Origin: a virus | Strand: one strand, 5' to 3' | IMG/VR virus record: IMGVR_UViG_3300030202_003403 | Location: 1-26,315 of that record | Length of the DNA stretch: 26,315 nt | The notes under the pieces: generated by a model | What the model saw: only the letters and a program-made list of their open reading frames with translations | Databases searched by the model: none | Told to the model about the DNA's origin: nothing | Shown: in pieces, positions 11,052 to 25,997 of the stretch | How positions within the stretch are numbered: the first letter of the stretch is position 1 | Layout of the letters: the number at the start of each line of letters is the position of its first letter | Translations under genes and position numbers: made by a program

Positions 11052-11795
11052 CTATTCTTCAAGTGACAAAGTCTCATCTGTTATTTTATTTTTTAATTCC
11101 GATAGTTTTCTAAGATAACCGTTTCTTCTAAGAAATTTAAATACTAAATTTTCGTATGAAAATTCACCTCTTTCTTCTAACCCACATCTTCTAAACTTTT
11201 TTAGTTTTTCTTTTATTTTTTGAATTATCTCCAAAGTTTCTTCTGGTTCTTGTAAATAAGATTTTCTTTCTACACCATCTATCATATCCATCCAAGATAA
11301 TGATTTGTGTAGTAATTTGTTATCATCCCAAGTATCACCTAATTTAACAGGGGACACTAACCATTCATTGTTTAGTACTGAATAAACTCCGGTTGAGAAG
11401 TGTGGTTCGTTCGCGTCTTGTGCGTATAGTTCAACTTCGTAACCGTGTACTTCTATGTCGTGAATTGAATTCCACATTCCTTGTTTCGCGTTAAATAATT
11501 CTCTAAGTACAGATTTGTCAATATTTGTATTATCAAAATCTATTAATACGTGTAAATCTATGTCTGAAAATGATGACCAATTGTAATTTGCTAAAGAACC
11601 TGTCATAGTTATATCTTCTACATCAACATCTATACCAAGAAAGTTTATAAAATTTTCTGATATCTCTAACAACTTTTCGACAATATCTGGTTTTAAATTA
11701 GGTTCCTTATCATTTTCAGAATTAGTATAATCCCATATTTCAGAATTTAACTCATCCTTAACTTTAAAACTTTGTAATATTTTATTTGTTTCCAT
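11052..11795 (-). CDS. Nucleotidyltransferase-fold protein (Pol beta superfamily)
   Basis: This 247-aa protein carries the nucleotidyltransferase signature MTGSLANYNWSSFSDIDLHV (from residue 64): the GS pair (66-67) and two metal-binding acids D78 and D80. A third acidic position fits VELYAQD (E122), completing the usual catalytic triad. The C-terminal part is helical and basic. Such enzymes transfer nucleotides to RNA, proteins or small molecules; the substrate here cannot be read from sequence. T4-like phages infecting several host groups carry proteins of this kind, generally uncharacterised. It has its own late box 5 nt before the ATG, so it is expected late, together with the head genes, which is unusual for a nucleotide-modifying enzyme and raises the possibility of a virion-associated role. 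Confidence 0.8.
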   Translation of the reverse strand: METNKILQSFKVKDELNSEIWDYTNSENDKEPNLKPDIVEKLLEISENFINFLGIDVDVEDITMTGSLANYNWSSFSDIDLHVLIDFDNTNIDKSVLRELFNAKQGMWNSIHDIEVHGYEVELYAQDANEPHFSTGVYSVLNNEWLVSPVKLGDTWDDNKLLHKSLSWMDMIDGVERKSYLQEPEETLEIIQKIKEKLKKFRRCGLEERGEFSYENLVFKFLRRNGYLRKLSELKNKITDETLSLEE

Positions 11796-11800
11796 TATTA

Positions 11801-11807
11801 ATAAATA
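11801..11807 (-). promoter_or_regulatory. Putative late promoter box for the nucleotidyltransferase gene
   Basis: The sense strand reads ATATTTATTAAT, with 5 nt between the box and the ATG at 11795. The sequence is identical over 12 bases to the box before deoC. Confidence 0.6.
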
Positions 11808-11819
11808 TTAATAAAAGGA

Positions 11820-12053
11820 TTAAGAAATTTTTTTGTATTTATAAATTTTTGCTATGTTCTTATTAAAGTAAGTTCCTTTACTAGTTGCACGTCTTAAATC
11901 TATTACAGTTTGTAATGGTACGTTACTATAAGAATATTTTCCCCCTTTTTTAAACTCCATAATTAATTCCTTAGTTTTTGAGTTATAAGTGGAAGATTTT
12001 AGGTTGCTAGAGGTATAACTCTCTTTAAGTGTCTTTTCTACTATCTTTGCCAT
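11820..12053 (-). CDS. KTSC-domain small protein
   Basis: This 77-aa protein fits the KTSC domain, a short beta-rich family found in bacteria and phages with unproven function. The family pattern is visible: a Ser-containing first strand (LKSSTYNSKTKELIMEF), then GGKYSYSNVP (about residues 37-46), then ATSKGTYFNKNI (about 56-67), where the small residues and the YFN motif are the most conserved part. The whole protein is little more than the domain plus a short N-terminal stretch. Its start lies just downstream of the dnaK terminator hairpin and 14 nt after a late box, so it is a late gene independent of dnaK. Confidence 0.8.
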   Translation of the reverse strand: MAKIVEKTLKESYTSSNLKSSTYNSKTKELIMEFKKGGKYSYSNVPLQTVIDLRRATSKGTYFNKNIAKIYKYKKIS

Positions 12054-12102: not shown

Positions 12103-13974
12103 TTACTCTTTTACTTCCTCATATTCAACATCGGTAACCTCATCCACTTTACTTTCAGTTTTTGGTTCTTCTGTTTCGGTTTGTTGGTATAACTTTGTAC
12201 TTATCTCTTGCCATGTGCTATTTAACTTTTCCATCATAGTTTCTACTTCAGTCATATTTTCTGATTTACAAGCTTCTCTAAGTTCTTTTATAACACTTTC
12301 TAAATTATCCTTGTCACCATCTTCAAGTTTATCCCCAAATTCCTTTATTTGTTTTTCTGTCTGAAACATAAGGGAATCAGCTTCATTAAGTTTTTGAATC
12401 TTTTCTAGTTTTTGATTATCTGCATCTGCATTTGCTTCTGCCTCTTTTCTCATTCTTTCTATTTCTTCATCTGATAAACTACTTCCGGACTCAATCTTAA
12501 TATTTTGTTGTTTTGATGTACCTTTATCTACAGCCTTTACATCTATAATGCCATTAGCGTCAATATCAAAAGTTACTTCAATTTGTGGTATTCCACGTGG
12601 TGATGGTGGAATATCTGTTAGTTGAAACCTACCTAAAGTTCTGTTGTCTCCAGCCATAGGTCTTTCCCCTTGTAAAACGTGTATATCCACAGATGGTTGA
12701 TTGTCTACAGCTGTTGAGAATACTTGGCTTTTTGATGTTGGTATTGTTGTATTCGCATCTATAAGTTTTGTCATCACTTGTCCCATTGTTTCAATACCTA
12801 ATGAAAGTGGTGTTACATCTAAAAGTAGAACGTCATTTACATCACCCGCTAACACACCACCTTGAATCGCAGCTCCCATTGCTACAACTTCATCAGGGTT
12901 AACCCCTTTTGATGGTTTCTTTTTAAATAACTTCTCTACCTCTTTTTGTACTACTGGTATTCTAGTGGACCCACCAACTAATAAAATCTCATCAATATCA
13001 GTTGCTTTCATTCCAGCGTCTTTTAAAGCTTTTCTACACGGTGTTAAACTCTTTTTAACTAAACTCTCAACCATAGATTCAAATTTTGCTCTTGATAGTG
13101 TACGTACTAAATGTTTAGGTCCAGTATTATCAGCCGTAAGATATGGTAGATTAATCTCAGTTGTAGTTGAGTTTGATAGTTCTACTTTTGCTTTTTCAGA
13201 AGCTTCTCTTAGTCTTTGTAGAGCTGAAGCGTCATTAGATAAGTCCATTCCGTTTTCAACTTTAAATTCTTCTAATAACCATTCAATTATCTTTTCATCA
13301 AAATTATCACCACCTAAATGTGTATCTCCGTTCGTTGCTTTTACTTCAAAAACACCATCTCCTAATTCTAATATTGACACATCAAAAGTACCACCACCAA
13401 GGTCATAAACAGCAACTGTCATGTCTTTATTTTGTTTATCCATACCATAAGCAAGTGCCGCCGCGGTAGGTTCATTAATAATTCTAAGTACCTTTAAACC
13501 AGCTATTTCACCAGCCTCTTTTGTAGCGTTTCTTTGTTCGTCATTAAAATAAGCTGGTACAGTAATTACCGCTTCACTTACTTTTTCACCCAAATAATCT
13601 TCTGCTGTCTTTTTTAGATTTTGTAAAACAACAGCTGATATTTCTTGTGGGACATAAGATTTTCCGTCAACTTTTATAGTCACAATACCTTTTGTACCCT
13701 TTATTACGTCATAAGGCATTTTTTTAGCCTCTTTACTTATTTCACTAAACTTACTACCTATAAATCTTTTTACAGAATATATTGTATTTTTAGGATTTGT
13801 AACAGCTTGTCGTTTTGCTGGGTCACCAACACTACGGTCACCATCTTTAAACGAAACAACAGAAGGTGTGGTTCTTTTTCCTTCACCGTTTACAATTATT
13901 TCAGGGTTTCCACCCTCTACCACAGAAACACACGAATTCGTAGTTCCTAAATCGATTCCAATTACTTTTGCCAT
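12103..13974 (-). CDS. dnaK: Chaperone DnaK (Hsp70), full length
   Basis: This 623-aa Hsp70 chaperone binds and releases unfolded peptides in an ATP-driven cycle with DnaJ and GrpE. All parts are present: phosphate-1 motif [10 protein letters not shown] (residues 5-14), the [10 protein letters not shown] block (168-177), phosphate-2 [10 protein letters not shown] (191-200), adenosine motif [10 protein letters not shown] (334-343), the hydrophobic linker [10 protein letters not shown] (381-390), a complete substrate-binding domain and helical lid, and an acidic tail ending VEYEEVKE. Nothing looks decayed, so it should be active. No dnaJ or grpE is seen in the window; host partners would be needed. 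The sequence is very close in style to Bacteroidetes DnaK, which suggests acquisition from the host. Unlike its minus-strand neighbours it lacks the late box and has a host-type promoter, so it is probably expressed earlier than the head genes. Confidence 0.97.
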
Positions 13975-14132: not shown

Positions 14133-14163
14133 TTGATTATTTTATAATATATTATTAATTTTA
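14133..14163 (+). promoter_or_regulatory. Weak Bacteroidetes-type promoter candidate for the clpC-like gene
   Basis: A TTG (14133-14135) is followed after 20 nt by TAATTTTA (14156-14163), which matches TAnnTTTG except for the last base. The ATG at 14185 is 21 nt downstream. Confidence 0.3.
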
Positions 14164-14184: not shown

Positions 14185-16203
14185 ATGTCTGAAATTGATG
14201 AAATACCACAAGGAGAACCTAGACAGCGTTCAAAAGATAAATCTAAGAGTTCTTCAACACCAATACTAGATAATTTTTCTAGAGATTTAACTATGTTAGC
14301 TTCTTTGGATGAATTGGACCAGGTTATTGGTAGGAAAAAGGAAATTAGAAGAATAGCTCAAACTCTATCGAGAAGAAAAAAGAACAACCCAGTATTAATA
14401 GGGGAACCTGGTTGTGGGAAGACTGCTATCGTAGAGGGTTTAGCTATGATAATTCATGAAGGTAAGTGTCCTAGGAATTTATTAGATAAAAGGATTGTTT
14501 CTTTAGAATTAACATCATTAGTTGCTGGCACAAAATATAGAGGTCAGTTTGAAGAAAGAATGAAAGCTGTTTTAGATGAATTAAGAGATAATGATGACAT
14601 TATAATCTTTATAGATGAAATTCATACTGTAGTCGGAACTGGTAATTCGTCTGGTAATCTGGACGCAGCTAACATATTTAAACCAGCTTTGGCTAGGGGT
14701 GAGGTTCAATGTATTGGGGCAACTACTTTAGATGAGTATCGTGAAAAAATTGAAAAAGACGGTGCTTTAGATAGAAGATTCCAAAAAGTATATATAGAAC
14801 CTACAACAACAGAAGAAACTTTAGAAATTCTTAAAAATATTAAGGATAAGTATGAGGACCACCATAAGGTTATATATAGTAATGATATATTAAAACAGTG
14901 TGTTGAGTTGGCTGAGAGATATATTACGGAAAGAGAATTTCCAGACAAAGCTATAGACATTTTAGATGAGGTTGGTTCTAAAGTTCAATTAGATATAAAA
15001 TACCCTAAAAGTATAGAAAACCTTAAAAAGAAAATTGTAGAGATTAAGGCTTTAAAGTTTGAGGTTGTCCAATCTCAAAAATATGAAAAAGCTGCTGAAA
15101 TTAGAGATAATGAAAAAAAATTAGTTGATGATTTACAGACAAAAAAAGATGTTTGGGAGAAAAAACAAGAAATAAATAAATTAGAGGTTAGTTTAGATGA
15201 TGTATTATCGGTTGTATCAGACATAACTAAGATACCATTGTCTAGGTTGGGTACTAAGGACAAGAAGAGACTTTTAAACTTAGAGAACAAATTACAGTCT
15301 GTAGTTATTGGTCAAAATGAAGCTATAGAAAAAATATCTAAATCAATAAGGCGTAATAGTGTTGGTATTAGGGAAAATAGAAAACCTATTGGGTCGTTTA
15401 TATTTCTTGGTCAAACGGGTGTTGGTAAAACTCATTTAGCAAAAAAATTAGCTGAAGAAGTATTTGGTAGTGAAGAAGCTGTAATTAGGGTAGATATGTC
15501 AGAATTTCAGGAGAAACACTCAATGTCTAGACTTATTGGTTCTCCACCGGGATATGTAGGATATAATGAGGGGGGTCAACTAACGGAAAAGATTAGACTA
15601 AACCCATATTCTTTAGTTCTTTTTGATGAGGTTGAGAAAGCACATAAGGATATTTTTAACCTACTTTTACAGGTATTAGATGATGGTTATATCACCGACG
15701 CTTCTGGAAGAAGAGTTAATTTTAAAAACACTTTAATTATTATGACTTCTAATATTGGTGTAAAACAGGTTATGGATTTCGGTACTGGTATAGGTTTTTC
15801 TACTAATTCAATGAAACAAAAAGAAGATGAACACGTAAGGTCTATAATATCAAAAGCTTTAAAGAACACTTTTAATCCTGAATTTTTAAATAGGATAGAT
15901 GATATTATAACATTTAATTCTTTAGATAAAGTTTCTTTAAAGAAGATTGTACGTCTTGAGTTGGGTGATTTAAAATCTAGACTTACAAAAAAGAATTATA
16001 CTTTTAGTTTTGGACCTAGTATTATAAATCACATTATAGATACTGGTTATGATGAAAAGTTTGGAGCTAGGCCTCTACAACGAACTATACAAACTGAGAT
16101 AGAAGATTTTATATCTGAAGAAATTCTAAAAGGTACCATATTAGAAGACACCCCATATACTTTAAGTTATAACAAAAAAACAAAAAAGGTTAAAATAAAG
16201 TAA
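14185..16203 (+). CDS. clpC: ClpC-like AAA+ unfoldase lacking the N-domain
   Basis: This 672-aa protein is a two-ring Hsp100 unfoldase of the ClpC type. Domain 1 has Walker A GEPGCGKT (73-80), Walker [10 protein letters not shown] (139-147) and pore loop TKYRG (116-120). The middle region holds a UVR-like motif ([16 protein letters not shown], about 298-313), a mark of ClpC rather than ClpB. Domain 2 has Walker A GQTGVGKT (409-416), pore motif PPGYVGY (454-460) and Walker [11 protein letters not shown] (478-487). GIGF (535-538) occupies the position of the ClpP-docking loop, so it could feed host ClpP. The roughly 150-residue repeat N-domain that binds adaptors is absent: the protein begins in the linker just before TPILDNF (25-31). 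The short basic head ([12 protein letters not shown]) seems an intact start rather than a broken gene. It is divergent from dnaK. Confidence 0.93.
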
Positions 16204-16210
16204 AATTATC

Positions 16211-16241
16211 TTTGTAGTTTGGAACAAAATCTCTATCTTTG
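16211..16241 (+). promoter_or_regulatory. Bacteroidetes-type promoter for the 156-aa gene and sprT-like gene
   Basis: A -33 TTTG (16211-16214) and a -7 TATCTTTG (16234-16241) are separated by exactly 19 nt. The -33 box is itself the end of an earlier TATCTTTG (16207-16214), so the 8-mer occurs twice. The ATG at 16256 is 14 nt downstream. Confidence 0.65.
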
Positions 16242-16255
16242 TCGTATAATAAGAT

Positions 16256-16726
16256 ATGAAAAAACTACCAAAAATATTAAAAAACCTAATCAAGAAAAAA
16301 ACATTTTCTTTAAACTCTATCGCGAAACAAAGTGACTGGAGAGGAGGGCTGAAGATTGATTATCGTATAACGATGGTTAAAGCTAGAGAAGAAGATTACT
16401 ATGAACATTTAACTCCTATGAATAATCAATGGGGAAAAAACTACGTGAATTTAAAAGTTAAGGGGTATGTGCAAACAAGAACAAGCTATTCCGGAGATAA
16501 ATTGTTAACAGAAATTAGTAAAGCTACCAGAACAAGAAAAAACTTTTGGGGTGGTTATGATTGTAAATACGATTCTCTTTGGGGCAACCAAGTAAACAAA
16601 AAAGTACGTAATGAAATTCGTAAAAAAGTACAGAAAGATGTTCGAGACTTTTTAAAGTTGTTGGGATGTAGTACAGACTCGTGGGATGGTGGAATAGAGA
16701 TTAAAACAATAAGTTGGGAAAAATGA
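16256..16726 (+). CDS. Hypothetical protein, 156 aa, basic
   Basis: I cannot assign a family. The protein is basic and rich in Lys, Arg, Trp and Tyr. It has a short Lys-rich N-terminus (MKKLPKILKNLIKKK), which could be a nucleic-acid-contacting or amphipathic helix. A middle section follows with alternating beta pattern (YVNLKVKGYVQTRTSYSG, about residues 61-78), then a helix rich in charged residues (VNKKVRNEIRKKVQKDVRDF, about 112-131). No membrane segment or Cys motif is seen. Its stop overlaps the ATG of the SprT-like gene in an ATGA tetranucleotide, so the two are translationally coupled and likely act in one process. A host-type promoter precedes it. Confidence 0.75.
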   Translation: MKKLPKILKNLIKKKTFSLNSIAKQSDWRGGLKIDYRITMVKAREEDYYEHLTPMNNQWGKNYVNLKVKGYVQTRTSYSGDKLLTEISKATRTRKNFWGGYDCKYDSLWGNQVNKKVRNEIRKKVQKDVRDFLKLLGCSTDSWDGGIEIKTISWEK

Positions 16727-17223
16727 AATTAGAAAAAGCAAGAAATATAGCCCTTAGATTAATGAGACAACATGGTCTTTCTGATTATACCTTTAAGTGG
16801 GACAGAGCAGTTCGTAGATTTGGTTGTCATAATGGTAGATTAAAAACACTTTCACTTTCTAGGCCTATGACAGAACATGAAAATAACGAAAAAAGAGTTA
16901 TTAATACTATTCTTCATGAAATAGCTCACGCGTTGGATTATAGAAAAAGGGGTTACTCTAATCATGACTCTGAATGGAAAAGAATGGCTAAGTCTATAGG
17001 TTGTAGTGGTGAAAGATGTAGTAGTGGTTCTGGTGTGGATAAATCTCAATTTATGAAATGGGTCGCTACTTGTCCTAGTTGTGAAAGAGAAGTTTATTAC
17101 GCTAGAAAAACAAAAGTGGATAAAGCTTGTGGTAGTTGTTGTAAAAAACACAATAATAACAAATATACTTCAGAATATAGATTTGGTTGGGTTTTAAACC
17201 CAAAAGTGGTTAAAAAGTATTAG
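16723..17223 (+). CDS. SprT-like zinc metalloprotease
   Basis: This 166-aa protein has the SprT-type zinc protease site HEIAH (residues 65-69; catalytic E66) with a third ligand H81 in NHDSEWKRM. It has a C-terminal zinc ribbon formed by CPSC (C117, C120) and CGSC (C136, C139). SprT/Spartan proteases in eukaryotes degrade DNA-bound proteins; bacterial and phage members are little studied. I chose ATG at 16723 because it overlaps the previous stop as ATGA. An upstream in-frame TTG at 16714 would add three residues but is less likely. It ends tail-to-tail with the 865-aa gene, the two stops sharing the four bases 17220-17223. Together with the ClpC-like and DnaK genes it makes a local cluster of protein-handling functions. 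Confidence 0.87.
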   Translation: MKLEKARNIALRLMRQHGLSDYTFKWDRAVRRFGCHNGRLKTLSLSRPMTEHENNEKRVINTILHEIAHALDYRKRGYSNHDSEWKRMAKSIGCSGERCSSGSGVDKSQFMKWVATCPSCEREVYYARKTKVDKACGSCCKKHNNNKYTSEYRFGWVLNPKVVKKY

Positions 17224-19817
17224 TCAATACATGTACAGTTACTAAACATATTCAGTCCTTTAGTGTTATCCGGTTCCCACATATCCCACATTTGTAATAT
17301 CTCTTTTTCATTAACCATCCAATTATCTTCAATCAAATCACATAAGCATTCCCCTTCATCTGCAAAATATTCTCTAACTTTTATTTTTTGGTCTGGACTT
17401 AGAGAAGCTGTTATAACCAGAAATTCTCGTTCATCCTCATCCTCTACCCCACGATTAAATATACCCATTAGGTCGTTAAAAACTTGTTTGACATCAAATT
17501 TATCTTCAACTGATTGTTCAAACTTTCCTAAACCACACTCAGTTATTAATTTTTCTAAGTTCTTTGGGTCAAGTAAACAATCTTCCGCGCTTAGATACAT
17601 TAGTTTTACTGACTGAAATAAATTTTCATAAATATCTGTCACATCATCGGTATCAAATAAAGCCATTTCCTGTTCTACATAATCTTCCCACAATCGTTCG
17701 TTTTTATCTCGTACTCCCTGCAGACTACCACCACCATGTCTAGTTTCTCGTTCTAAAAACTCAACCCATTCTGGGACACAACCACCGTTTAAAATATCAA
17801 CATACGCTTCAAATGTGCATGTTCTTTCTGCTTCCTGACTAAAAAACTCCTCAAAAGTAGTACCATTTTCATCTAGTTTATTTTCGAAAGCTGCCTTTAC
17901 CTTATCTGAAAATAATTCCTGAAACTCAGAATATTTTATGTACGCTCCAAAAGCGGGTAAACCTAACCCTATGGTCCATTTACCTATTTGGGTCGCGTAT
18001 CTTATACCCATTGAAATTTTGAAAGAATAGTTTAGTATGTCCTCATTAAACTTTACCATATCTAAAAAATCATCATAAGTTTTAATATTTCTAAGTCCTG
18101 GTACCTTTTGCCATTCTTTAGTAGTTGTAAGTAACTTAAATTGTTTAGCGTTCTTTACTTGTTTAGAAAACTTTACCAAATCTACCGCTTCATCGCTATT
18201 TTTTAAAATATTATAAGCTGTATGTCTATTTGCAATTACAAAATCTACCATTTCCTTAGTTGGTCCGTCTAATGTACTATATATTTTTGTGGTTGGAGCT
18301 TCAAAAAATTTCATCACACCCTCAGTAACCTCATCACCCATATTAGCGAATTTAAACATCTTGAGGAATCTAAATATACCTAAACCTTCTAAAAACCCTA
18401 CAGCAATTGCCCAACCTCTCTTACCTTGTTCCCATAACGCAACTACAGTTACGGCTCCAAGAAAAAGTATAACACCTTCAACCGCTAGTGTTGTTCCTAC
18501 AAAAAGAGTAACTACAACCATAGCTAAAGATATAGTACCAGCTACTATTTCAACACAGTACCAACCTTGTCCGTCACAATAGTCAACCATCCATTGTAAT
18601 CCGTCTATAAACTTATTAAACACCTTGGTTCCTTGATTGAAGACTTTTTCTAAAAATCTTACTGTTGATGCGGGTAATATAAGTCCATCTCCAAACGGAA
18701 GTTCTTCATTAGATGGAGCACCAGTAAAAAGATACCCAAGACCCTTCTCCATAGTTTCTAAAAACTTCGGGTTTACTTCCAGGTCTACACCGTCAAGTGT
18801 TTTAATTGGGGTTAAATCCATAGTGTAAGGATTTCTTGAACTTGAGGATTTTGAGGATTTTGAGGATTTGTCATTTTTAGTTTCCTCTAATTCAGTATAA
18901 CTACGAGTTCTACTATCAAAACTATAGTTTGTGGACTTTGGTAATGTTTTTTTAGCTTGTTTATCTAAACACTCAACAAGATTTAAAAATTGTATATTTT
19001 TTATGTTTGATGTTGTTTCTCCTCGTTTGTCATAACCGGAAACTTTACTTAATTTTTTATCCATTTTTTCCCACAGTATGTCCTTCTGACATGGTGTGGA
19101 GTAACATGTTGCTGCGAATCCATCATACATATCCTCACATTTCTTAACCCATTTATTTGGTAAATTAAATAATTCTACGTAATCACACGGATTAACTGAG
19201 CGTTGGTCTCTTTCTTTTAAAGAATATTCTGGATTATCAGACCATTTTCTAATGTTATCTATAAATGTTGGTCCATTGCTCATTTCTTTATTATTTGGGT
19301 CTAAATAAACTTTAGAGGTGTATCCCTGTGGTCCATACATGTGTAGGTATTCGTGAATTCCAAGATAACTACCCGTATCGTCATCCCCAGCCGCCATATT
19401 TTCCCAGTAAACCCTACATACTCCATTTTTTTCCTGTCCACCAAATTCAACACTACTTCTCCAGGCTAGTAATCGTTTTTTTTCATTTTTTTTTTCACCG
19501 GTATTATAAAGCTCATTTTTTCTATACTCCTCATAACTATCATACCCACCATAACTTCTACCGTCATTTGGGACAAACCCACCATAATCTCCAGCTTCTG
19601 GACCACCAAGAAATGAAACAACCACATCATCGTAAGGGTCCGCAGATATAAAATAGGTTGCACCGTCTTGATAGTTCCATCCATTTTTAAGTCCCAATGG
19701 AAGGTGCCAACTGTCGTCCGCAAAACTGGTTTGTTCTTGTAATTGTTGTTGGGCTCCCTCTAGTGTGGCTAAAATTAGTTTAACTAATTCAGATTCTTTT
19801 AAAACTAATTTAGTCAT
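17220..19817 (-). CDS. Large putative virion protein with HEYLH motif and hydrophobic segments
   Basis: I do not recognise this 865-aa protein as a whole. The N-terminus (LVLKESELVKLILATLEGAQ, from residue 4) is a short amphipathic helix followed by QLQEQ, reminiscent of head-targeting peptides that T4-type prohead proteases remove. Residues 155-159 read HEYLH, matching the zinc-protease pattern HExxH, but no clear third ligand is evident. A Ser/Lys spacer (KSSKSSKSSSSR, about 317-328) leads to two adjacent hydrophobic segments (about 421-462) rich in Val, Ala and Gly that could insert in a membrane. The C-terminal third is acidic with scattered Cys. It is the third gene after the late box of deoC, with its ATG directly abutting the stop of the gene before, so it should be made late. 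An ejected internal protein is a plausible but unproven role. Confidence 0.7.
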   Translation of the reverse strand: MTKLVLKESELVKLILATLEGAQQQLQEQTSFADDSWHLPLGLKNGWNYQDGATYFISADPYDDVVVSFLGGPEAGDYGGFVPNDGRSYGGYDSYEEYRKNELYNTGEKKNEKKRLLAWRSSVEFGGQEKNGVCRVYWENMAAGDDDTGSYLGIHEYLHMYGPQGYTSKVYLDPNNKEMSNGPTFIDNIRKWSDNPEYSLKERDQRSVNPCDYVELFNLPNKWVKKCEDMYDGFAATCYSTPCQKDILWEKMDKKLSKVSGYDKRGETTSNIKNIQFLNLVECLDKQAKKTLPKSTNYSFDSRTRSYTELEETKNDKSSKSSKSSSSRNPYTMDLTPIKTLDGVDLEVNPKFLETMEKGLGYLFTGAPSNEELPFGDGLILPASTVRFLEKVFNQGTKVFNKFIDGLQWMVDYCDGQGWYCVEIVAGTISLAMVVVTLFVGTTLAVEGVILFLGAVTVVALWEQGKRGWAIAVGFLEGLGIFRFLKMFKFANMGDEVTEGVMKFFEAPTTKIYSTLDGPTKEMVDFVIANRHTAYNILKNSDEAVDLVKFSKQVKNAKQFKLLTTTKEWQKVPGLRNIKTYDDFLDMVKFNEDILNYSFKISMGIRYATQIGKWTIGLGLPAFGAYIKYSEFQELFSDKVKAAFENKLDENGTTFEEFFSQEAERTCTFEAYVDILNGGCVPEWVEFLERETRHGGGSLQGVRDKNERLWEDYVEQEMALFDTDDVTDIYENLFQSVKLMYLSAEDCLLDPKNLEKLITECGLGKFEQSVEDKFDVKQVFNDLMGIFNRGVEDEDEREFLVITASLSPDQKIKVREYFADEGECLCDLIEDNWMVNEKEILQMWDMWEPDNTKGLNMFSNCTCID

Positions 19818-21528: not shown

Positions 21529-21560
21529 TTTGTTTAATTCAAATTTTTTCATTATCTTTG
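21529..21560 (+). promoter_or_regulatory. Bacteroidetes-type promoter for the M20 peptidase gene
   Basis: TTTG (21529-21532) is followed after 20 nt by TATCTTTG (21553-21560). The ATG at 21565 is only 4 nt beyond the -7 box, so the transcript would be leaderless or nearly so. Confidence 0.6.
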
Positions 21561-21564
21561 TAGT

Positions 21565-22371
21565 ATGAAAGAAAAACTTAAAAATATTTTATCAGTTCCT
21601 ACGTACACTTGGGAGGAAGACCAATTAATAGAATATGTTACTAATATATTAGATAAAAAAGGTTATGAGTACTACTTAGATGACCTAGGTTCCATTTATA
21701 TAACTAAGGGTAGGTCTGACTATTATCCATGTCTAGTTGCCCATCTAGACAGTGTACATCAAATAAAAGAATACGAAGTTGTGGAGGAACTACAATTAAA
21801 TGCTCAGGGTGAAGAAAAGCCTTCGTTGGTTGGGTACGACTCTATGAGTGGTGAAAGGTGTGGTGTTGGTGGTGACGATAAAGCTGGTGTCTTTATATGT
21901 TTAGAATTATTAGATAAATTTGACAATATTAAAGCTTTTTTCCCTGTAGCTGAAGAAATAGGTTGTGAGGGTAGTAAAGCAGCTGATGAATCTTTTTTTA
22001 AAGATGTTGGTTATGCTGTCCAGTTTGATTCCACCGAAAACAACACAATGAGTAAAACTCTTTTAGGTGTTAAACTTTATGAACAAGATGGTGAGTTTAT
22101 TAAAAAATGTGAAAATTTAATATTAGAACACGGCATTAGTGAATGGAGACACCACCCTTATACCGACACTATGGTTTTAAAAGAAAAATTTGATTTTAGT
22201 TGTTTAAACTTTGCTGCTGGATATTATGGTTGGCATTCTAGTACTGAATATGTTGTAATTGAGGACGTTCAAAATGCTATTAATTTAGGTGAAAAAGTTA
22301 TAATTGAGTTGGGTAATAAAAAATACCCTTATAAACATAAAATAGATGGGTTTGTTTGGGGTGTAGACTAG
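21565..22371 (+). CDS. Short M20/M42-type metallo-aminopeptidase (PepT-like)
   Basis: This 268-aa protein has the complete two-metal site of M20/M42 peptidases: AHLDSVH (H60, catalytic D62), GGDDKAG (D104), PVAEEIG (catalytic E130 and E131), QFDST (D155) and a final His in YGWHSS (H224). The DDKAG and AEEIG blocks are closest to tripeptidase T. Typical family members have about 350-420 residues because of an inserted dimerisation or lid domain between the last two ligands. Here only about 70 residues separate D155 and H224, so most of that domain is missing and the enzyme may be monomeric. It would trim small peptides in the cytoplasm. It stands alone under a host-type promoter and ends tail-to-tail with the 1209-aa gene, the two stops sharing CTAG at 22368-22371. 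Confidence 0.85.
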   Translation: MKEKLKNILSVPTYTWEEDQLIEYVTNILDKKGYEYYLDDLGSIYITKGRSDYYPCLVAHLDSVHQIKEYEVVEELQLNAQGEEKPSLVGYDSMSGERCGVGGDDKAGVFICLELLDKFDNIKAFFPVAEEIGCEGSKAADESFFKDVGYAVQFDSTENNTMSKTLLGVKLYEQDGEFIKKCENLILEHGISEWRHHPYTDTMVLKEKFDFSCLNFAAGYYGWHSSTEYVVIEDVQNAINLGEKVIIELGNKKYPYKHKIDGFVWGVD

Positions 22372-25300
22372 TTTGTGTCTAAATCTAATTCATAATTTAA
22401 GGTATAGTCAGCTAATTGGTCTAACTTTATTTCATACCTTTTGCTATTATAACTACCTGTTCCTGCTCCTGAAATGAAAATTGTTAGAGTGTTATCTTTT
22501 GGTTTATAGTCTCTTATCTGTACTGTTCTTATACCAGCTTCTAACTTATCTTGTCGTTTTAAATCAGAGTTTGAGTATGGTTTTGTAAACCCTAACTCTT
22601 CGGTTACTTTTTTAAATTCCTCTCTATTAGCCTTTAACTTTTCTACATCACCACCGTACTCTTCAACAACTTTATCTATAAACCAAATCATTCTTTCATT
22701 AAATTCATCTACACCTTCTTTATCAATGTCCCAAGCGTCATACCAAACATCAGATAATTGTCCATCAATATGATTTATTTCAGTATCTTCTATTTCAAGA
22801 AAATTATTAATTTTTTTGTCACCTATTATATAAAGTAATTGTTCATAAGTAATATATAATTTCCATAATGGGTATCTATTATTTCCTACATATTCATAAT
22901 CTAAAACTTTGTCCTCTGATACCGTTTCTGTCACAGATTTTACTCTAGACCTTCCAACTGCACACCCGAGAGCGTCTAGAAGTTCGTAATAATTTCTTTC
23001 CCATAATTCTGGTACTAACTCTTGCATCATTTCATCTATAGAACCGTCATCTGTCCAAACATATTTATTTGGGTCTTCCCCAAATACAGTCACCATATCA
23101 TTAAGTTTTTGAGTGGTTTCTGGTGTTAAATGATAATGCATGTAATTTAATTCTTCATCATCCATTTCCTCACAGTGGTCATTATAGTAATATCTGTCGG
23201 TGGCCAACTCAAAATACCAATCATCGTCTTCGTCAACACCCATAATTTTTTCTTTAAAAATAGACTCGTCATAATAAATTGACACACCTTTATTACCAAA
23301 ATACACACTCTGAACTACAGGGTTATAATCATTTTCAAGATAAGTCATATCAGATAAAAACTCTTTTAATTTTTCTTCAGTTACAGGATTTGGATTTTTA
23401 ATCATATTATAAACTAATTTAGAAAACTCATTTGTATCTCTTAAATCTTCTAAAATAGTGGAGTCTAACTCTACACCATATTTCATTTTATCGAACGTTG
23501 TGTATGTTTGTTGAAACATGTCGTGTAAAGTTGGTTTGTCCGCTAAAAATCTATGTTGGTTTAACCACTTATTACTTTTAGTTTTTATTTGAACATGGGG
23601 GCTTGGTAATCCAGGTACTTTTTCCCTATCATCAAACTTCCACCTTTCACCAGTATCTTTAGATTGTAGTATGTAAGATGTTCCATACCCCTCAAACGAT
23701 TTAACACCGTCACTACACCATTGTGTACCTTTAGCTAATTGACAAAAACTATAATCATTTATTGGCCACACATATTTCCAATTATCATTTTCAAAAATTG
23801 TTTTTACTCTAATTCTTTGTTCTTGTTCATTTATAGGTTCTGTTTCACCTGTTGGTGTTGTTACTGTTGGTTCGTACAATAACTCTGGTAACCTATCAGA
23901 TAATGATTGGTTAATGTCATAGCTTGGGAAATAATACCCATCAAACCATCTTGTTTCCGCTTGTAAACATTCTCCTTTTTTTCCTTCACAATAATCATGG
24001 AACATATACTCCTCGTCTATCAACATGTCAAAAATTTGTTTTTCATTTAAGTATATGGGGTTTATATCTACTAACGCGTCTTCTAGTGTTGTTCCCGCGT
24101 AATCAGGATGATATTCAAATGTTTCTATGTTGTCCCACGTATTACCATCATTTACCCATTTTTTTAAATCATCTTCAAAATACCAAGACCACGAACCATC
24201 TTCATCACTTCTATATAATTTACCATCAGCTCCAAAATGTTCTCGTAATTTATCCAAAATATCTTCTTTCATAGCTTCTTTAACAGCATATTCAGCTTCA
24301 TCATTATGAGCCCACACTATAAAATTCTCAATCTCATTTATTTCTTCCTCATACTTTTCTTTAAGTTCATCTATTTCTTCACTGGTAGAACCTGGACTTA
24401 AAATATCTTCAGCAACTTCCTTGGATACACCACCAAAAATTTTACTTATAGTTTCCCAATTCCCCTTGTCAATATCTTGTAACATATATTCATCATATTC
24501 ATAATTGTACCAATCACTATGTTCATACCAATCATCTAAACTACATAAAAAGTCATGTATGTAACTCATATCATAATCTCTATTATTTCTATCAAATAAC
24601 CCTGTTAAATCATCACAATCATAGGTTCTACTAACCATAACTGGTTTTGTGGTGTTTTGTAACCAACGTTTTACTAAAAAGACTGCTACATTATAGTTTA
24701 CCTCAATCCCTAATATTTTCATATCATTAAGGTCTGCACCGTGTTCATCCCATTGTTTAAAAATATAAGGTATAATTCTTTCTGGCACTCTTTCCATGAC
24801 ATCATCCATATCTTCTTTTTCCATACCAGCTGTAAAGTCCCATTGTCCTGTTGGGAATAGTTTTAGTTGCTCCTCATGTTCACGTAACCTACCTTTCATT
24901 TGAAGGTCATATTCCGAATCTTGTTCAAATCTATATAAATCACCAAAACTAATTTTTTGGTCTATCTCAAAAGGTATATTACTACTAGATGTACTTGATG
25001 ATTGTTGTATGTCTGCTACACTACCAGTAGGGGTCATAAATATTATAAATTTTTGTGATGGTCGTCCCCAACCACCTTCTCTTGTAAACACAGCTTGAAC
25101 TAAACTACCTCTTAGGGCATCAGATATATTTCTTCTTGGTTTACGTCCACCACCAATCATACCCGCTTCAGTTAATACATCTTCTATTTTAATATATTTG
25201 TCATATGGGTCCATTAAAACTCTAACCCCATCATCGTGGTATTCATGATATCCATTATCCACAAAAGTTTCCATTTCTGGAAAATAAACTTTTAATATTG

Positions 25301-25997
25301 TAACTTCTTCACCATCTGGTGTTTCGTCTATAGTTACTTCCACCACTTTACCTTTAGAATAATTTTCTGGTGGAATATATTCACCACCTGATTCATCTTC
25401 GGATGGAAAAGTTGTGTGGTCTAAATGCACAACTCTAATATGGTCACCTGGTTTTACTTTTGGGTTTAGTTCTTTTTTTGTTTCTTCATTTAATGGTTTT
25501 AACCCTAGGCTACCCCATAGGTCTTCATCTTTAAACATATCTGGACTCATATATTCTATAGCTAACGCCATAGCTTGACCAGAAGATAGTGGAAATATAT
25601 CTATTATTTTATTTTTTATAATGTTAGTAATTGAATCATAATCACTACTATCTGTTGGGTCAAAATTACCCACCCCAATAGAAGTTGGTAAAACAAAAAA
25701 GGTTAATCCGTCTACATCTTTTTTTTCTACCCAACCATCTAGATATTCAAAAATTACTTTTTTAATATTTTCATGTCTTCTTTTTTTGTATACACCATCT
25801 ATGTGTTCTTGTATTTTATTTTGGACATTAGGGTTCCATTTATGGTCAAAATGGTTAGAGTGTAGAAGTGTAGCTAGAGTAGTATCTACATAAAGATTTT
25901 TCTTAATTGCATTAATTTGCTCTAAAAGACTTTCGTCTTTGGTAACTGTTAAGACATTTTGTGTCTTTTTTCTTAATTTTTCTAAAAGTATCGACAT
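22368..25997 (-). CDS. Giant acidic protein, 1209 aa, putative virion-associated
   Basis: I cannot name this 1209-aa protein. It starts with a short amphipathic helix (ILLEKLRKKTQNVL). At about residues 178-240 lies a likely SH3/KOW-type beta barrel (VKPGDHIRVVHLD, then KGKVVEVTID). A Ser-rich linker occurs near residue 335. The middle is very acidic and rich in aromatic residues (DDWYEHSDWYNYEYDEY). At about residues 735-775 is the pattern W..PINDYSFCQLAKGTQWCSDG followed by a Tyr/Gly block; I have seen similar WC motifs in other large phage proteins but know no function. No membrane span, polymerase or protease site is evident. A late box 7 nt before the ATG implies late expression, so a particle-associated role is likely, possibly an internal head protein. 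Confidence 0.75.
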   Translation of the reverse strand: MSILLEKLRKKTQNVLTVTKDESLLEQINAIKKNLYVDTTLATLLHSNHFDHKWNPNVQNKIQEHIDGVYKKRRHENIKKVIFEYLDGWVEKKDVDGLTFFVLPTSIGVGNFDPTDSSDYDSITNIIKNKIIDIFPLSSGQAMALAIEYMSPDMFKDEDLWGSLGLKPLNEETKKELNPKVKPGDHIRVVHLDHTTFPSEDESGGEYIPPENYSKGKVVEVTIDETPDGEEVTILKVYFPEMETFVDNGYHEYHDDGVRVLMDPYDKYIKIEDVLTEAGMIGGGRKPRRNISDALRGSLVQAVFTREGGWGRPSQKFIIFMTPTGSVADIQQSSSTSSSNIPFEIDQKISFGDLYRFEQDSEYDLQMKGRLREHEEQLKLFPTGQWDFTAGMEKEDMDDVMERVPERIIPYIFKQWDEHGADLNDMKILGIEVNYNVAVFLVKRWLQNTTKPVMVSRTYDCDDLTGLFDRNNRDYDMSYIHDFLCSLDDWYEHSDWYNYEYDEYMLQDIDKGNWETISKIFGGVSKEVAEDILSPGSTSEEIDELKEKYEEEINEIENFIVWAHNDEAEYAVKEAMKEDILDKLREHFGADGKLYRSDEDGSWSWYFEDDLKKWVNDGNTWDNIETFEYHPDYAGTTLEDALVDINPIYLNEKQIFDMLIDEEYMFHDYCEGKKGECLQAETRWFDGYYFPSYDINQSLSDRLPELLYEPTVTTPTGETEPINEQEQRIRVKTIFENDNWKYVWPINDYSFCQLAKGTQWCSDGVKSFEGYGTSYILQSKDTGERWKFDDREKVPGLPSPHVQIKTKSNKWLNQHRFLADKPTLHDMFQQTYTTFDKMKYGVELDSTILEDLRDTNEFSKLVYNMIKNPNPVTEEKLKEFLSDMTYLENDYNPVVQSVYFGNKGVSIYYDESIFKEKIMGVDEDDDWYFELATDRYYYNDHCEEMDDEELNYMHYHLTPETTQKLNDMVTVFGEDPNKYVWTDDGSIDEMMQELVPELWERNYYELLDALGCAVGRSRVKSVTETVSEDKVLDYEYVGNNRYPLWKLYITYEQLLYIIGDKKINNFLEIEDTEINHIDGQLSDVWYDAWDIDKEGVDEFNERMIWFIDKVVEEYGGDVEKLKANREEFKKVTEELGFTKPYSNSDLKRQDKLEAGIRTVQIRDYKPKDNTLTIFISGAGTGSYNSKRYEIKLDQLADYTLNYELDLDTN

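Follow-up and report, generated by a model that had tools for sequence, protein, structure and literature searches.

A ClpC-derived AAA+ unfoldase without its N-terminal domain, encoded by large phages

Introduction

The locus studied here raises the question of whether a phage can have a ClpC unfoldase that has really lost its N-domain, and what such a phage would use it for. The DNA analysed, hereafter the window, is a stretch of 26,315 nucleotides from a virus (positions 1 to 26,315 of IMG/VR record IMGVR_UViG_3300030202_003403), and on its plus strand an open reading frame encodes a ClpC-type double-AAA+ unfoldase of 672 amino acids that starts within the linker preceding the first AAA+ module (AAA1). 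ClpA and ClpP genes have already been reported from jumbo phages (PMC7824862), the bS21 phages are large Bacteroidota phages with a Clp protease and chaperones (PMC9723584), and the 'moraphages', also large Bacteroidota phages, have a core 'ClpA' gene and a DnaK of the Flavobacteriaceae type (PMC12619734). The window phage is probably of the moraphage kind, i.e. a Bacteroidota phage with DnaK, and was rejected as a bS21 phage, there being no S21 gene on the contig. The moraphage paper makes no mention of 'N-terminal', a discussion of a missing N-domain was not found in it, and in the open papers that we searched, with subscription papers and preprints outside the search, we found no description of an N-less ClpC or of its repeated origin. 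The jumbo-phage ClpA proteins and PHROG 4871 (RaK2, CBB, slurp01, PA5oct, Atu_ph07, SCTP-2) are likewise phage double-AAA+ Clp unfoldases, and the ClpP loop is present in Atu_ph07, PA5oct and qdvp001 as it is in the window ClpC, but unlike the latter these phage proteins are ClpA-like, with 160-220 residues before AAA1 and an identity of 33-37%. The match of the window protein to the PHROG 4871 profile starts at position 158 of 764, so that the N-domain is skipped.

Domain layout and assignment

Pfam recognises AAA (residues 70-199), AAA_lid_9, UVR (281-313; PF02151, 22.1 bits with a cut-off of 21.5), AAA_2 (400-574) and ClpB_D2-small in the 672-residue product, and gives no match to Clp_N. 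The top PDB match is ClpC of B. subtilis (711 bits), where the alignment opens at residue 154, and the AAA1 motif of the phage protein lies at residue 46. The initial annotation, made from the sequence alone, had described a ClpC that begins in the linker and lacks the N-domain, and the missing Clp_N match, the stop codon upstream (Table 1) and the point at which the B. subtilis alignment opens all agree with it. It had also listed a UVR-like middle motif, both Walker pairs, both pore loops and a G-I-G-F loop, and each of these is present. In the predicted structure (mean pLDDT 75) the N-terminal tail is disordered, the M-domain forms a helix pair and the ClpP loop is disordered, as expected of a flexible loop; the best fold matches of the model are the S. 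aureus MecA/ClpC/ClpP and the M. tuberculosis ClpC1P1P2 complexes.

A phylogenetic tree places the protein with ClpC of Bacteroidota and apart from E. coli ClpA, and its scores against the NCBIfam models for ClpB and ClpA fall under both cut-offs. We rejected ClpB, since the protein has a helix pair of about 55 residues instead of the long four-motif M-domain and possesses a ClpP loop, and ClpA, which has no M-domain between AAA1 and AAA2 where the phage protein has one of the UVR kind. PADLOC returned only generic AAA matches on this DNA. What characterises ClpC is thus found in the form of two intact AAA+ modules, a UVR-like M-domain with an aromatic tip residue and a [LIV]-G-F loop for ClpP, whereas the N-terminal Clp_N (a double repeat of about 145 residues) is not. 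Judged by its domains, the phage protein is therefore not a canonical ClpC, and we name it a ClpC-derived N-less variant because a defining ClpC domain is missing.

Table 1. Positions in the window of clpC, of motifs in its product and of neighbouring genes
Feature	Position	Strand	Basis
N-less ClpC-type AAA+ unfoldase, 672 aa	14185..16203	+	ORF, Pfam, PDB match, relatives
In-frame TGA, 16 codons before the ATG	14134..14136	+	excludes an in-frame upstream N-domain
Variable disordered N-tail of 24 aa with net charge 0, left over from the linker between N-domain and AAA1	14185..14256	+	pLDDT about 40-50, alignment, host linkers
AAA1 Walker A GEPGCGKT, residues 73-80	14401..14424	+	sequence, alignment of relatives
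AAA1 pore loop KYRG, residues 117-120	14533..14544	+	invariant in 24 relatives
AAA1 Walker B FIDE, residues 142-145	14608..14619	+	sequence, alignment of relatives
UVR-like M-domain helix pair, residues 275-330	15007..15174	+	Pfam UVR 281-313; the model shows two helices
Aromatic Y300 at the tip of the M-domain, aligning with F436 of S. aureus and B. subtilis (head-to-head contact)	15082..15084	+	alignment
AAA2 Walker A GQTGVGKT, residues 409-416	15409..15432	+	sequence, alignment of relatives
AAA2 pore loop GYVG, residues 456-459	15550..15561	+	sequence, alignment of relatives
AAA2 Walker B VLFDE, residues 478-482	15616..15630	+	sequence, alignment of relatives
ClpP-docking loop Ile-Gly-Phe, residues 536-538, after AAA2 sensor 1	15790..15798	+	conservation
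Full-length DnaK, 623 aa, divergent neighbour of clpC	12103..13974	-	Pfam HSP70, NCBIfam DnaK
Nucleotidyltransferase-like gene (11052-11795) and KTSC gene (11820-12053)	11052..12053	-	NTase or KTSC in 78/80 closest loci
156-aa gene (orf156) and SprT-like metalloprotease, downstream of clpC, own Bacteroidota-type promoter	16256..17223	+	Pfam SprT-like; TTG-N19-TATCTTTG at 16212

Absence of the N-domain at the locus

A missing domain in a viral contig might simply have been lost through a frameshift, an assembly error or a wrongly chosen start. There is a precedent in Klebsiella phage K64-1, which appears to be N-less but has its N-domain just upstream in another frame. In the window, the ATG of clpC is preceded by a gap of 210 bp and then by the divergent dnaK, and an N-domain in frame with clpC is excluded by the TGA. 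Clp_N (PF02861) has no match on the whole 54.8-kb contig or in 27 other viral records, and an HMM of our own, built from the N-domains of full-length proteins, detects nothing in any frame near 273 N-less loci, the window included. Viral relatives on independent contigs (88, 88 and 76% identity) begin at the same point, and an assembly error at 14185 is therefore not the explanation; the chance that the absence is an artefact seems to us negligible. K64-1 itself (L170, YP_010842962.1, annotated as 'ATP-dependent protease') was rejected as a cultured N-less case, as the N-domain HMM flags it upstream in the other frame and its relative RaK2 is full length; most of its N-domain is missing through a frameshift or a sequence error.

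The deletion coincides exactly with the linker of the host proteins, in which the motif TPVLDNF (79 of 80 Bacteroidota ClpCs) has the counterpart TPILDNF in the phage. The 24 residues of the tail had been taken for a short basic N-terminus that might recognise substrates in a new way, a description that does not hold: they are first acidic and then basic, with a net charge of 0, and as a variable leftover of the linker they form the least conserved stretch of the protein in the alignment of relatives, which gives no support to a recognition element.

Distribution and repeated loss

From a scan of viral contigs we obtained 372 relatives. In each of the best 80, a short tail at the N-terminus leads into TP[VIA]L[DN]NF, while the best 80 bacterial matches, nearly all from Bacteroidota, are without exception full length, with AAA1 about 200-250 residues into the open frame. 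Among the ClpC matches listed as best for 247 Bacteroidota genomes, all but one, of 747 residues, have an open frame of 834 residues or more. The distance from the upstream stop to AAA1 is bimodal over 337 viral loci, with one group of up to 78 codons, another from 170 codons upwards and no value between them, a set in which contig ends have cut a few of the shortest N-termini. Since the 80 viral relatives are all N-less and the host ClpCs full length, the N-less ClpC appears in these data as a viral trait, and on this comparison both a recent deletion and an assembly error are excluded as the origin of the short-N architecture. Host and phage proteins share AAA1, the UVR-like M-domain, AAA2, the ClpP loop and the linker, at 54-58% identity; the difference lies in the part before AAA1, where the host ClpC has an N-domain of about 150 residues and the linker, and the phage protein only its 24-residue tail.

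Eight changes are required to explain the N-less state on a tree of 93 proteins, at least four of these being forced by well-supported branches, and a single clade of all N-less proteins is rejected (AU test, p 0.00064), although the trees are of the 'quick' type with single-branch support and long-branch sequences (e.g. L166 and L167) are of uncertain position. The huge phages LR745206, LR756502, LR756508 and LR756504 (484-642 kb) also have an N-less ClpC, with a VGF or IGF loop, but at a locus that differs from that of the window, and the LR745206 type has a separate origin in the tree, whereas LR756508 and LR756504 sit on long branches and their position is uncertain. A constraint that unites only the window line and the LR745206 line, each of which is one clade, is likewise rejected (p 0.00108). 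As the viral N-less ClpCs do not form one clade, the N-domain has, according to these trees, been lost at least twice in large phages.

The sister group of the window's N-less line consists of viral full-length ClpCs. A nucleotidyltransferase-like (NTase) or KTSC gene flanks clpC in 78/80, 65/80 and 51/62 N-less loci of the three scans nearest to the window, and lies beside it in 20 of 52 viral full-length loci versus none of 46 from the LR745206-type scan. Because the full-length viral sisters thus share the locus in part, the simplest reading is that the loss took place inside a phage lineage that already carried clpC. In hundreds of phage loci the NTase-like and KTSC genes accompany clpC as a conserved pair.

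Gene neighbourhood and promoters

DnaK is present in 11 of the 28 viral records searched, and in the window its position next to clpC suggests that the two may be partners. PHROG 22485 carries the label 'unknown function', but it is DnaK, and the phage DnaK matches it over the whole length. Promoters of the Bacteroidota type (TTG-N19/20-TATCTTTG) lie at 16212-16241, ahead of orf156 and sprT, and at 21530-21560, ahead of an M42-like peptidase gene, on the strand that does not carry the virion genes; for clpC no clear promoter was found. Counted on both strands, the window contains 20 copies of the motif TATTTAT. Ten of them stand no more than 60 bp ahead of ten minus-strand genes, where about 0.5 would be expected, and these genes include terL and those for portal and the head maturation protease. 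No copy precedes clpC, dnaK, orf156, sprT or the M42 gene. TATTTAT is probably a late-promoter element resembling TATAAATA of T4, and its absence ahead of clpC speaks mildly against a late assembly gene. Two long minus-strand genes, at 17220-19817 (865 residues) and 22368-25997 (1209 residues), have no PHROG matches, and the shorter one has no Pfam match either.

The neighbourhood could also be taken to mean that ClpC works without ClpP, as a chaperone that together with the adjacent phage DnaK (DnaJ in other phages) remodels or disaggregates proteins in virion assembly. It adjoins dnaK among head and packaging genes, ClpA lies beside dnaJ and structural genes in other jumbo phages, and translocase or assembly roles for phage ClpA and ClpX have been suggested in a review (PMC7824862). 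We nevertheless find such a role unlikely, as the long M-domain with which ClpB recruits DnaK is missing, the ClpP loop that ClpB lacks is kept, only 7 of the 80 closest loci have dnaK in the vicinity of clpC, and the late-promoter-like motif is not found upstream of clpC.

ClpP and ClpS

In 40 viral records related to the window no ClpP was found, from which it would seem that these phages never carry the protease; one of 15 further records has it. The impression is wrong for the sister clades, since among larger records ClpP is present in 20/29, 13/30 and 5/17. The catalytic Ser and His motifs are retained in 18 aligned phage ClpPs, and in seven loci (L177, L185, L187, L210, L227, L253 and L371) a clpP gene lies on the same strand directly downstream of the N-less clpC, so that these would be phage-encoded two-gene ClpCP units. 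In the window's own subclade ClpP was not found in 12 records (the window and 11 others), which are partial, two of them being of 156 and 211 kb, and because of this the host ClpP is the likely partner of the window protein. The initial proposal that the phage uses host ClpP and so redirects host proteolysis may thus stand for the window, but it is not the general story, as many relatives carry their own ClpP.

ClpS is an adaptor that binds the N-domain, and it was found in all of 20 Bacteroidota host genomes tested. Five phages of another line with an N-less ClpC (records of L338, L341, L342, L364 and L370) encode a ClpS of their own, an adaptor for the domain that is missing, which may act on the host ClpC or on the M-domain; this would be odd if an N-less ClpC simply evades ClpS.

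Conservation of the ClpP loop and the M-domain

In 129 non-redundant N-less proteins (less than 88% identity) the Gly-Phe of the ClpP loop, G537 and F538, is invariant, while the columns beside it are hypervariable (2-3.5 bits of entropy). As these two residues stand fixed in every protein inside a hypervariable loop, strong selection on ClpP docking is supported. The residue at the tip of the M-domain, aligned with B. subtilis residue 436, is aromatic in all 129 proteins (Tyr in 123, Phe in five, Trp in one) and is equally kept in full-length ClpC. For the core, comparison with four relatives gives a dN/dS of 0.07-0.15, dS being close to saturation, and by these patterns the AAA+ motor, the M-domain and the ClpP loop are under purifying selection. 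Of the residues that anchor the N-domain in S. aureus, which might be relaxed where that domain is lost, D356, E426 and E435 are variable already in full-length Bacteroidota ClpC, and E359 is kept in both groups alike.

Discussion

The reading that we favour, and regard as moderately probable, is that the phage-adapted N-less ClpC serves as the unfoldase ring in a ClpCP protease that is relieved of gating by the N-domain. The ring would dock on ClpP, in the window's phage that of the host, and the pore would recognise substrates directly by exposed tails or ssrA-like degrons and then thread them. In host ClpC the N-domain maintains the resting state and is the site to which ClpS, MecA-type adaptors or phosphoarginine bind; in the phage protein it would no longer gate the process. 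As the protein keeps the aromatic Y300, tuning through the M-domain is still probable, which suggests that activity would be controlled by head-to-head M-domain contacts or by an M-domain partner. The outcome would be a more promiscuous ClpCP protease beyond the control of host adaptors during infection.

Engineered N-less forms of S. aureus ClpC (PMC12583610) and M. tuberculosis ClpC1 (PMC6274998) have the same linker remnant, AAA1, M-domain, AAA2 and ClpP loop, but they are laboratory constructs, whereas the phage protein is a natural and selected form. The resting state of S. aureus ClpC depends on the N-domain as its anchor, and deletion of this domain raises the ATPase and lets ClpC bind ClpP without MecA or any other adaptor (PMC12583610). 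With F436 intact, this N-less ClpC forms ClpP-bound head-to-head rods of up to 320 nm that do not degrade casein or GFP-ssrA, while together with F436A it degrades GFP-ssrA strongly and is toxic in E. coli (PMC12583610). The M. tuberculosis form, N-less ClpC1, still unfolds an ssrA-tagged substrate, and inhibition by ClpS persists via the M-domain (PMC6274998). The adaptor-free binding of ClpP and the raised ATPase are in favour of the ClpCP reading. In other respects both constructs speak against it by analogy, since the phage keeps the aromatic with which the S. aureus form is inactive, and ClpS may inhibit even without an N-domain. The initial suggestion that host adaptor control is bypassed is for the same reasons plausible rather than established: the N-domain is gone and the hosts do have ClpS, but the two constructs behave otherwise. 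Moreover, pairing with ClpP in the window's subclade rests on an assumed host ClpP, and the host itself is inferred.

The S. aureus rods lead to another possibility, namely that N-less rings pair head to head through the M-domain and string ClpP into inactive rods, whereby the phage would block Clp proteolysis in the host rather than redirect it. The engineered protein does exactly this, and both features that the rods require are found in 129 of 129 N-less proteins, namely the ClpP loop and the aromatic of the M-domain. The aromatic carries little weight, however, as full-length ClpC retains it equally, and the catalytic Walker, pore-loop and arginine-finger residues have been retained too. 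Sister phages carry their own ClpP beside clpC, which would be pointless for a pure ClpP inhibitor, and we hold sequestration to be decidedly unlikely.

For E. coli ClpA, a short form that starts internally is reported to act by co-assembly, and the phage protein might in the same way enter mixed hexamers with host ClpC, dilute the N-domains and retune the host ClpCP. An identity of 55-58% to host ClpC that extends across the entire ring-forming core is in favour of such mixing. Window-type N-less ClpCs have, on the other hand, diverged from the hosts at many columns that are conserved in full-length ClpC, and a ClpP of their own in sister phages suggests an autonomous machine, which together make the poisoning of host rings highly improbable.

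For large phages in general, it is quite possible, though we would not yet call it probable, that a derepressed ClpCP has evolved repeatedly, in which the N-domain was discarded while ClpP docking and M-domain contacts were kept, some lines supplying ClpP and others, the window's among them, taking that of the host. Each such protein would then be a naturally 'unlocked' ClpC beyond host adaptor control. Antibacterial peptides, adaptors and phosphoarginine all act on ClpC at its N-domain, and phages that removed this domain independently would offer natural versions of an unlocked ClpC that evolution has already tried out. These proteins make it possible to ask how substrates are chosen and activity restrained without an N-domain, and what a phage may gain from a protease outside the control of its host.
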